Assembly: GCF_003640665.1 (NCBI RefSeq)
Contig: NZ_QQXL01000001.1
Location: 124,001-188,000, forward strand
Direction: 5' to 3'
Length of the DNA: 64,000 nucleotides
DNA from: Galactobacter caseinivorans
Lineage (GTDB): Bacteria > Actinomycetota > Actinomycetes > Actinomycetales > Micrococcaceae
A model generated the notes under the pieces. The model was not told the DNA's origin, searched no databases, and was given only the letters and a program-made list of their open reading frames with translations. The translations under genes were made by a program, and so were the position numbers. Positions 21,123 to 53,237 of the stretch are shown piece by piece; the stretch's first letter is position 1, and each line of letters opens with the position of its first letter.

Positions 21123-22046
21123 TCAGATGGCCGGATGGGACCTGCGCCGCTGCTGGTGCAGGGCGTCGATGATCAGCACCACCACGGCCACCCAGACCAG
21201 GCAGAAACCGGCCCAGCGCTGCGGTGGCATGGGCTCGTGGAACACAAACACGGCGATGATGAACAGCAGCAGCGGGGCAATGTATTGCAGCATCGCGATG
21301 GTGGTGAGCGGCAGCCTGGCGGCCGCGGCGGCAAAGGCCAGGAGCGGCAGGGCCGTGGCGACGCCGGAGGCGGCCATGAGCCAGAAGTGGCCGGCGCCCT
21401 GCTGGAAGAGCGTCAGCGTGCCCTGCCCGGCCATGATGCCCATGACCACCGCGGCGATGGGGGTGAGCCAGGCGGTCTCCGCGGTGAGCCCCTCCAGGGC
21501 GCCAACGCTGCGTCCCACGCGGTTCTTGACCAGGCCGTACGTGCCAAAGGAGAACGCCAGGATGAGGCTGATCCAGGGCACCTGACCGTAGGCCACGGAC
21601 AAGACGGCCACCGCCAGCAAGCCGATCCCCATGGCCACCCACTGCAGGCGCGAGAGCCGCTCGCGCAACACCATCACGCCAAGCACCGTGGAGACCAACG
21701 GGTTGATGAAGTACCCCAGGGAGGCCTCCGCCGTATGCCCGGAGAGCACGGCAAAGGTGTAGGTGAGCCAGTTGCCCGCGATCAGGATCGACGCGGCGGC
21801 CAGCGTGAAGGTCAGGCGCGGGTTGGTGAAGACCGTCCAGAAGGAGCGCCAGGAACGCATCACGGTGAGCAAGATGGCGCACAGGAGCAGGGAGAAGATG
21901 ACCCGATCCGCCACCACCTCCACGGCGCTGGCAGACTCGATTGTCTTGAAGTACAGCGGCAGGAAGCCCCACATCACGTAGGCGGAAACGCCGGCGATGA
22001 AGCCGATCTTGTGGTGATTGGGTGCGGGAGGAGTGGACACGGTCAC
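21123..22046 (-). CDS. RarD-type EamA/DMT transporter
   Basis: 307 residues, ten predicted transmembrane segments in two EamA repeats. The N-terminal GFIAGVSAYVMWGFLPLYFKTI and the INPLVSTVLGVMVLRERLS segment are typical of RarD (chloramphenicol-sensitivity protein) homologues. It probably exports a metabolite; substrate unknown. GTG 22046 is used, with GTG 22040 also possible. It is divergent from the ferredoxin reductase gene across a 537-bp repeat-rich region. Confidence 0.85.
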   Translation of the reverse strand: MTVSTPPAPNHHKIGFIAGVSAYVMWGFLPLYFKTIESASAVEVVADRVIFSLLLCAILLTVMRSWRSFWTVFTNPRLTFTLAAASILIAGNWLTYTFAVLSGHTAEASLGYFINPLVSTVLGVMVLRERLSRLQWVAMGIGLLAVAVLSVAYGQVPWISLILAFSFGTYGLVKNRVGRSVGALEGLTAETAWLTPIAAVVMGIMAGQGTLTLFQQGAGHFWLMAASGVATALPLLAFAAAAARLPLTTIAMLQYIAPLLLFIIAVFVFHEPMPPQRWAGFCLVWVAVVVLIIDALHQQRRRSHPAI

Positions 22047-22206
22047 GATCCCTAGCAGACCACTCGTGCCTGCGCTTGTCACATCCGTGACGCCCCGCCG
22101 GCGGGAGGGCGGGGGTTGGCGGCGCGGTGGGCGGGCGGCGCGGTGGGTGGCGCGGTGTGCTCGACGGCGCGTGGCGGGGTAGGCGGCGGGGTGCGCGAGG
22201 AAACCC

Positions 22207-22315
22207 GGATCTGCTCATGTTTCGTGGATCTGCTCGCCTTTCATGGATCTGCTCCGTCCATTGGGGCGAGCAAATCCACCGAACACGAGCAAATCCATAG
22301 AACACGAGCAAATCC
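22207..22315. repeat. 19-bp-phased inverted repeat array, type A copy 1
   Basis: Forward 10-mers GGATCTGCTC at 22207, 22226 and 22245, then a 13-nt centre (22255-22267), then inverse 10-mers GAGCAAATCC at 22268, 22287 and 22306. Every step is exactly 19 bp. The spacers are partly complementary too, so the whole 109 bp could fold into one long imperfect hairpin. It lies between two divergent genes, so it is not a terminator. 19 is not a multiple of 3, so the repeat is not coding. Confidence 0.95.
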
Positions 22316-22451
22316 TCGGCGGGGGTCCCCGTCCGCCGTCGCCGCCGTCCCCGTCGTCCGCCGCCGCCCGCCGCCGTCCGTCGTCCCCGCCGCCCGCCGC
22401 CGTCCCCCGCCCCCGTCCGCCGTCCGCCGTCCCCGCCGCCCGCCGTCGTGC
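22313..22451 (+). repeat. 139-nt adenine-free low-complexity tract
   Basis: No A occurs on the plus strand from 22313 to 22451. The tract is made of irregular GTCC, GCC and GTCCGCC steps. It starts in the last unit of the phased array and ends about 130 bp before the ferredoxin reductase start. No protein frame through it looks real. Confidence 0.9.
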
Positions 22452-22583
22452 ACTCGCGTTCGTGGCGCATGTCACCTCTCAAGGCATCTTTCAGGCGGCC
22501 CGCTTAGGATTGTGGCTGGCCTGTGCACCCGCGCCGCGCGTGTGCCCACCTCAGAGGCCCCCGGATTTGTCGGAAGGATCCCC

Positions 22584-30479: not shown

Positions 30480-30689
30480 ATGGGTCAAAACATGGACATC
30501 GAATGCGTCGGCGGGCTGTGGAACGGGCGCTGGATCAGCACGCCGCTGAACGAGCACGGGCAGCTGGCCCCTGCCCTGAACGATGAGGCGGGCAAGCCCT
30601 ACTACCGGCTGATCTTTGACCGCTGCATCATCGACGCCAACAATCACCACAGCTACGAGAACCCGCGCTTTGTGCCGGTGGTCCTCTAG
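30480..30689 (+). CDS. Small hypothetical protein
   Basis: 69 residues starting MGQNMDIECVGG; ATG 30492 is also possible. The sequence is rich in Trp, Tyr, Asn and His (LWNGRWISTPLNEHG, ANNHHSYENPRFVPVV) and has no membrane segment. It looks like a folded small soluble protein. I do not recognise a family. It stands alone between efeB and a repeat array that begins five bases after its stop. Confidence 0.6.
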   Translation: MGQNMDIECVGGLWNGRWISTPLNEHGQLAPALNDEAGKPYYRLIFDRCIIDANNHHSYENPRFVPVVL

Positions 30690-30693
30690 CCCT

Positions 30694-30874
30694 GGATCCG
30701 CTCGCCTTTCCCGGATCTGCACTGGCCCTTCCCGAACCTGCCTGGTCCCGGCGAGCTGCCGCCCCGGATCCGCTCGCCTTTCCCGGATCTGCTCACCTTT
30801 CATGGATTTGCTCCGTCCAATGGGCAGGGCAAATCCACGGAACACGAGCAAATCCACGGAACACGAGCAGATCC
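30694..30874. repeat. 19-bp-phased inverted repeat array, type A copy 2
   Basis: Forward units GGATCCGCTC or GGATYTGCTC at 30694, 30713 (variant), 30766, 30785 and 30804, a 13-nt centre (30814-30826, CGTCCAATGGGCA), then inverse units at 30827, 30846 and 30865. Steps are 19 bp except for one 53-bp interval with decayed sequence. Its inner part is nearly the same as copy 1 at 22207. Confidence 0.93.
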
Positions 30875-47148: not shown

Positions 47149-47331
47149 CGCATTTCCTAGGCCACTCTGCGGCGGCTGTGGCGTGAGCCCTGACGTTAGC
47201 CCTGGCCTGGCCGACGCCGCCCACCGTGCGCCGTGGGGCGTAGTGCCACTTTCCACCGGGTTTTGGCCGTGCGCCCGAGTATTTGCCGTCCTTGCGGCGA
47301 AAAGCCGGTGGAGATCCGGGCCGCCATCCGC

Positions 47332-47398
47332 GGATTCCCCGAGATTTCATGGATCCCCCGTCGAGTGGGCGGGGGATCCACGCAAACCCGGGGGATCG
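47332..47398. repeat. 19-bp-phased inverted repeat array, type B copy 1
   Basis: Forward 9-mers GGATTCCCC (47332) and GGATCCCCC (47351), centre GTCGAGTGGGC, inverse GGGGGATCC (47371) and GGGGGATCG (47390). All steps are 19 bp. The spacer before the inner unit ends TTTCAT as in type A. It overlaps the 3' end of a frameshifted HTH gene. Confidence 0.93.
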
Positions 47399-52995: not shown

Positions 52996-53081
52996 GGATC
53001 CCTCTCGTTCGCGTGGATCCCCCGAGATTTCATGGATCCCCCGTCGAGTGGGTGGGGGATCCACGAAAACCCGGGGGATCG
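52996..53081. repeat. 19-bp-phased inverted repeat array, type B copy 2
   Basis: Forward 9-mers GGATCCCTC (52996), GGATCCCCC (53015, 53034), centre GTCGAGTGGGT, inverse GGGGGATCC (53054) and GGGGGATCG (53073). All steps are 19 bp. 53015-53081 matches 47332-47398 in the same orientation at 64 of 67 positions. Confidence 0.95.
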
Positions 53082-53237
53082 GTGGGATGAACCTGAGCGG
53101 CGCGGATCGGCGAACAACGTTTCGCCGGGCGTTCGCAGCGCATCCGGACAACGAACGTCCTAGCACCCACAACCCGGTGGGCATCCGCTAGACCGGTCGC
53201 GAGGGTCCATCCCAGTTGAACCCAGCCCGGCAGCTGC

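Follow-up and report, generated by a model that had tools for sequence, protein, structure and literature searches.

An interrupted palindrome with a 19-bp step

The window analysed here is a 64,000-nucleotide stretch of the Galactobacter caseinivorans genome (G000). In it, the genes for an EamA transporter (21123-22082, minus strand) and a pyridine-nucleotide oxidoreductase (from 22584, plus strand) diverge from an intergenic space that holds array A, a 109-bp interrupted palindrome at 22207-22315 (palindromes are given without a strand throughout). By direct reading, it is built from 3+3 ten-bp units at 19-bp steps, with the plus units GGATCTGCTC at 22207, 22226 and 22245 and the inverse units GAGCAAATCC at 22268, 22287 and 22306. 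Between the arms lies a 13-nt centre, CGTCCATTGGGGC (22255-22267), and since the dyad axis runs through CCAWTGG in this centre, the palindrome comprises the full 109 bp. An earlier note on this DNA had described the same arrangement in the same divergent setting, and we confirmed both: all six units are exact 10-mers and the steps are exactly 19 bp. Its judgement that such regularity lies beyond chance also stands. GGATYTGCTC with at most one mismatch occurs 30 times in the window, versus a mean of 8.1 (s.d. 2.9, maximum 18) in 100 dinucleotide-preserving shuffles of the window, none of which reached 30. The excess matches come from array A together with a second array at about 30694-30874, which the note had not mentioned.

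The note had further proposed a hairpin of about 48 bp with partly complementary 9-nt spacers. A stem of this kind is possible, but it is less perfect than proposed, with 36 of 48 pairs Watson-Crick and 3 further G-U pairs on the plus strand, and the complementarity of the spacers is indeed partial, at just 5/9 and 4/9 matching positions. CRISPR was rejected in agreement with the note, as direct repeats with unique spacers of about 30 nt are absent and the array has similar 9-nt spacers and inverted halves instead; on the anatomy of the array, it is likewise neither a terminator nor a coding sequence. GC-rich low-complexity tracts surround A, GGCGGGCGGCGCGGTG-like before it (22100-22206) and CCGCCGTCC-like after it (22316-22460); they are missing from the same spacer in sister species, and similar tracts lie beside copy C described below.

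Copies in this genome and arrays in relatives

A search of the whole genome yielded four copies, A to D, every one of them 3+3 with the same centre and with 79-86% identity to A. Copy B, a second 109-bp 3+3 array in the window (30766-30874), lies in a convergent intergenic space and has 86% identity with A where the two align; upstream of it is a partial extra left arm, GCCCTGGATCCGCTCGCCTTTCCCGGATCTGC (30689-30741, plus strand), 97% identical to the left arm of B. Copy C (C15:71769-71877) occupies a divergent and copy D (C14:27108-27216) a tandem intergenic space, so that the setting of A is not a constant feature. Most of the 13-nt centre is invariant among the four, and their G+C content is 52-57%, versus 68% across the window. 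The earlier note had stated that its reading would fail if the array occurred nowhere else in this or related genomes; instead, this genome holds four of them, and the same architecture with other units recurs in relatives. An assembly artefact was ruled out because the four diverged copies sit on three contigs.

Within the genus sample the element is restricted to this genome, as none was detected in the three other genomes, and at the two loci that were compared (A and D) the spacers of sister species are shorter and array-free. At copy D, the enoyl-CoA hydratase and PfkB genes are separated by 224 bp here versus 73, 110 and 145 bp in relatives, and by 115 bp (224 - 109) once the element is subtracted. 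The RarD-FprA spacer at copy A measures about 540 bp versus about 216-227 bp in two relatives retaining the gene pair, a difference to which low-complexity expansion also contributes. Using blastn, the array matched its own genome alone among 398 genomes of the family and had no match in plasmids and phages, and the pattern GAGCAAATC N10 GAGCAAATC gave scattered matches in public genomes and viral contigs, none of them 3+3. Because blastn matched the own genome alone, a covariance model of A-D was needed to reach relatives. Across the same 398 genomes it revealed the same architecture with a different unit sequence in other genera, as well as a second type (E) within the window. A look-alike inverted motif with a 19-bp step, GGATTTGCTCTTGCTCAGAGCAAATCC N9 GAGCAAATCC, is present in a metagenome-assembled genome of the gammaproteobacterium Luteimonas (L031:998) and is probably a coincidence.

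We then compared conservation of the unit sequence with conservation of pairing. Across the 24 units of copies A-D, 8 of 10 positions hardly vary and the remaining ones switch between T and C; the spacers keep TT at unit positions 14-15 and T at position 19 with few exceptions. Complementarity between matched arm units does not exceed that between unmatched ones, the spacers are closer to their neighbours within the same arm than to their pairing partners, and compensatory changes are absent from all pairs in the four copies. In the C14 type, another family of this genome, the variable positions differ between the arms, again without compensation. With the unit sequence conserved and the pairing not, a DNA-binding protein is indicated instead of an RNA. 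In one family from another genome (G002), two positions are changed on both sides with pairing retained, and judging from these double changes a hairpin or cruciform form may also matter.

A nuclease-like gene family beside the palindromes

The end of copy C lies 114 bp upstream of the start of a single-copy gene, gene C (G000:C15:71992-73125, 379 aa), whose product combines an N-terminal AbiEi-like winged helix-turn-helix (wHTH) with a C-terminal Vsr/REase-like domain related to MTES_1575/DUF559; the MTES_1575 REase has a Vsr fold (PMC3710099). By tblastn with the gene C protein, homologues were found directly beside arrays in five genomes (G002, G310, G166, G167 and G012), those in G002 and G310 each sitting between two arrays; the weak covariance-model matches in other genera thus adjoin homologues of gene C. 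The family shares the motifs ES.GES.R, DF.W and EF[DE]G..K. Its proteins match AbiEi_4, MTES_1575, DUF559 and the PADLOC AbiEi profiles with modest scores, the Pfam scores lying mostly below the gathering cut-offs, including most of those for MTES_1575/DUF559; AbiEi_4 exceeds its cut-off in two of six proteins, is weak in two and is absent in two, gene C included. A PADLOC AbiEi profile was the best match for 3 of 4 proteins (E-values 5e-6 to 1e-11), among them gene C, which is without a significant Pfam match and whose AbiEi assignment comes from the PADLOC profiles (5e-6) and the alignment. In the alignment of six proteins, E..GES.R, D231, E242 and K248 are retained, gene C having EFEG in place of EFDG. 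Gene C also carries a low-complexity insert and has one palindrome copy only, upstream. Taken together with the divergence of A-D, these features suggest that the pair may be inactive and the partner of A-D perhaps decayed. Profile searches found no relatives in solved structures, viral contigs or phages, and no partner protein matched the Y1 (IS200/IS605-like) transposase families. Solitary AbiEi/DUF559-like proteins gave seven matches in this genome and are present in 33 of 38 genomes of the family tested.

To avoid circularity, the association was examined in 60 further genes gathered by protein profile alone and not used for the covariance model, from a sample with one genome per species. 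In about 17 kb around each gene, palindromes were sought with an arm of 26 and complementarity of 80% or more, both arbitrary thresholds, with 460 long ORFs elsewhere in the same regions as controls, these being mechanical ORFs rather than annotated genes. A palindrome lay within 300 bp of 42/60 family genes versus 50/460 controls (Fisher 2e-22), and 24 family genes were bracketed on both sides versus one control (Fisher 6e-24); 18 of the 60 had no palindrome at the threshold used. By distance, 67 palindromes were no more than 300 bp from a family gene, the intervals of 300-600 bp and 600-1500 bp held 4 and 2, and the other 770 kb held 57; 35 genes had one upstream and 31 one downstream. The two palindromes bracketing a gene matched each other with a mean of 0.83, versus 0.41 with those of other genes, and 24 of 24 such pairs exceeded the 95th percentile. 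Protein and palindrome similarity are correlated (Mantel r = 0.17, 0/500 permutations), an effect that is weak and possibly confounded by shared genome or ancestry. By the way bracketing was defined, each bracketed gene is the only ORF between its palindromes, and in the four annotated records from the plasmid collection no toxin gene is adjacent.

The 20 more distant homologues intended as a negative control were themselves positive, with a palindrome at 13 and bracketing at 5, indicating that the association extends beyond the closest subfamily. Among 26 loci outside the family in the phylum sample, 13 had a palindrome and 3 were bracketed. In Collinsella aerofaciens (NZ_OY725717.1), WP_148332043.1 stands between two palindromes, and the same record contains eight places that match. 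Beside the bracketed gene of G310, a longer run of units of about 20 bp, TGCAGGGACATTCCGCGGGGAACCGGACAGAG-like (L106:6030-6300), suggests unit amplification beyond 3+3.

The 60 genes were not selected for 19-bp repetition, and the step reappears among them. In the 42 genes with a palindrome, the self-similarity of the arms reaches 0.386 at lag 19 versus a mean of 0.263 elsewhere, with lags 18-20 left out of that mean (Wilcoxon 3e-9), and 19 is exactly the best lag in 22 of the 42. Palindromes far from family genes have no lag-19 peak. The step recognised in array A thus marks the group as a whole but not every member: the C14 type, for one, lacks the phase, and G002 has a step of 20.

Further palindrome types are dispersed in this genome. 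For all four paralogues whose palindromes were tested, a separate dispersed family was found; with the orphan E type as the fifth, the families occupy 14, 7, 8, 14 and 10 places, a total of at least 53 that includes flanking copies, and the three sister genomes have none of them. One gene of this genome bracketed by palindromes is at G000:C14:202171. Members of the C14 type end sharply at shared boundaries, their flanks are unrelated, and no target-site duplication is evident in 13 copies. Outside some C14-type copies, as in the L255 flanks (G000:C11:373262), the sequence is inverted-complementary, GGGCCCATGC...GCATGGGCCC, perhaps reflecting insertion into pre-existing hairpins. The E type is represented in the window by palindrome 1 (52999-53102), with an architecture related to that of A and a different unit, GGATCCCYC, at 19-bp steps (exact at 53015-53042, inverse at 53054-53081), and by palindrome 2 (47329-47398); it has at least 10 copies in the genome, for which no partner gene was found. 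Directly beside palindrome 2 is a dispersed copy of the C18 type (TTTCCACCGGGTTTTSGCC and its inverse, 47250-47314), the type whose palindrome flanks the AbiEi-REase gene at G000:C18:75944-76891. The two types stand side by side, about 80-150 bp apart, at several places in this genome (window 47250-47398, C16:120183-120755, C16:221070-221217 and C19:85543-85773), as if moving or maintained as a pair. G002 (L100:7055) and G003 (L103:5735) share an orthologous, nearly identical palindrome at the same locus, and at least one dispersed copy is therefore older than their split.

Interpretation and comparison with known systems

Our favoured reading, which we hold to be rather probable, is that gene C is the partner of a palindromic element of which array A is one dispersed, non-autonomous copy, spread in trans in a REPIN/RAYT-like manner. 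The earlier note had offered a small mobile element and a phased binding array as separate possibilities. The dispersed copies, the relatives lacking the array at the compared loci and the linked gene for an AbiEi-like wHTH protein favour both, and the two are probably right together. Since known AbiEi proteins bind inverted repeats with one monomer per repeat (PMC3985639, PMC7319586), each 10-bp unit is proposed as the site for one wHTH monomer, and the 19-bp-stepped units inverted about the centre would let several monomers load on one element. Each family gene tends to have, on one side or both, a palindrome sequence that is specific to it. The REase-like domain of the linked protein would cut at or near the loaded palindrome, and copying or repair after the cut would presumably place copies at other intergenic sites.

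The palindromes could instead be operator arrays only, with the AbiEi-like regulator controlling its own gene and the dispersed copies serving as sites of a regulon, nothing being moved by the protein. Classical AbiEi proteins do autoregulate through inverted repeats (PMC3985639, PMC7319586), divergent promoters flank copy A, and it is the unit sequence rather than pairing that is conserved. Yet palindromes lie downstream of the 60 genes about as often as upstream, copies B and D stand at convergent and post-stop positions, and the dispersed copies are complete and sharply bounded elements, have unrelated flanks and are missing from sister species, which makes a purely regulatory role unlikely. 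It is also conceivable that another enzyme, or replication slippage or recombination, mobilises the palindromes, the AbiEi-REase genes being passengers or simply inserting at or tolerating such hairpins. No transposition of the palindromes was observed, and neither target-site duplication nor transposition chemistry was seen, which leaves room for such an origin, as do the partnerless E type and the extra inverted complementarity in some flanks. Against it, the palindrome is gene-specific and identical on both sides of a gene, and each of four tested paralogue palindromes forms a dispersed family of its own; we regard this explanation as quite improbable. Finally, a structured RNA, as the earlier note had also suggested, or a transcription terminator or insulator hairpin would agree with the strong folds predicted on both strands (-57 to -74 kcal/mol, z -6 to -9). 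The array has no Rfam match, A has no T-tract at its end, a hairpin needs no 19-bp phasing, and the pairing comparison above, in which matched arms fared no better than unmatched ones and compensatory changes were lacking, goes against it; we consider an RNA or hairpin function highly implausible, with the reservation made above for the G002 family.

More broadly, solitary AbiEi/DUF559-like proteins are frequent in actinobacteria, where they are annotated as antitoxins or hypothetical. The gene-palindrome link gives each of them a candidate substrate and makes this open annotation problem directly testable by binding and cleavage. The pairing of a palindrome with a nuclease-like gene appears to represent a kind of selfish repeat system not described before. 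We call it new because it did not fall within the known systems compared below and because a limited open-access search, preprints not included, found no prior report linking AbiEi/DUF559 proteins with REPIN/RAYT-like palindromes or the motif.

With MITEs and ERIC/Correia-type repeats, the palindromes share their short (66-109 bp), non-autonomous, intergenic form and sharp ends. Unlike MITEs, they are linked to a gene that is not a known transposase; no target-site duplication was seen, no parental IS with matching ends was found, and the comparison with plasmids and phages gave no match. The AbiE type IV toxin-antitoxin systems (AbiEi antitoxins, Rv2827c) are similar in the N-terminal wHTH and in having inverted repeats near their own gene, the known AbiEi repeats being 23 bp long and separated by 3 or 13 bp. 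They differ in that the C-terminal domain here is REase-like, the bracket holds a single gene without a partner toxin, and palindromes also lie downstream and are dispersed. The closest resemblance in organisation that we noted is to REPIN/RAYT (TnpA-REP) systems and TIRtrons (PMC3116915, PMC3733652, PMC8266576). As in REPIN/RAYT, intergenic palindromes stand on both sides of a single-copy gene, each gene has its own palindrome, and the palindromes are dispersed as species-specific, non-autonomous copies. In contrast to RAYTs, the partner is an AbiEi-like wHTH joined to a Vsr/REase-like domain and not an HUH tyrosine transposase; in contrast to REPINs, the palindromes have no GTAG/CGTC tag, ending in GGAT.../...ATCC (A-D) or TTTGCGC.../...GCGCAAA (C14 type), and their arm units repeat at 19 bp. 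Given the different partner and the missing tag, the palindrome system is not a member of REPIN/RAYT. Whether solitary AbiEi-REase genes and their own palindromes constitute a new class of selfish system, convergent with REPIN/RAYT but with unrelated chemistry, we consider evenly balanced; if they do, REPIN-like repeats would have arisen a second time, independently.
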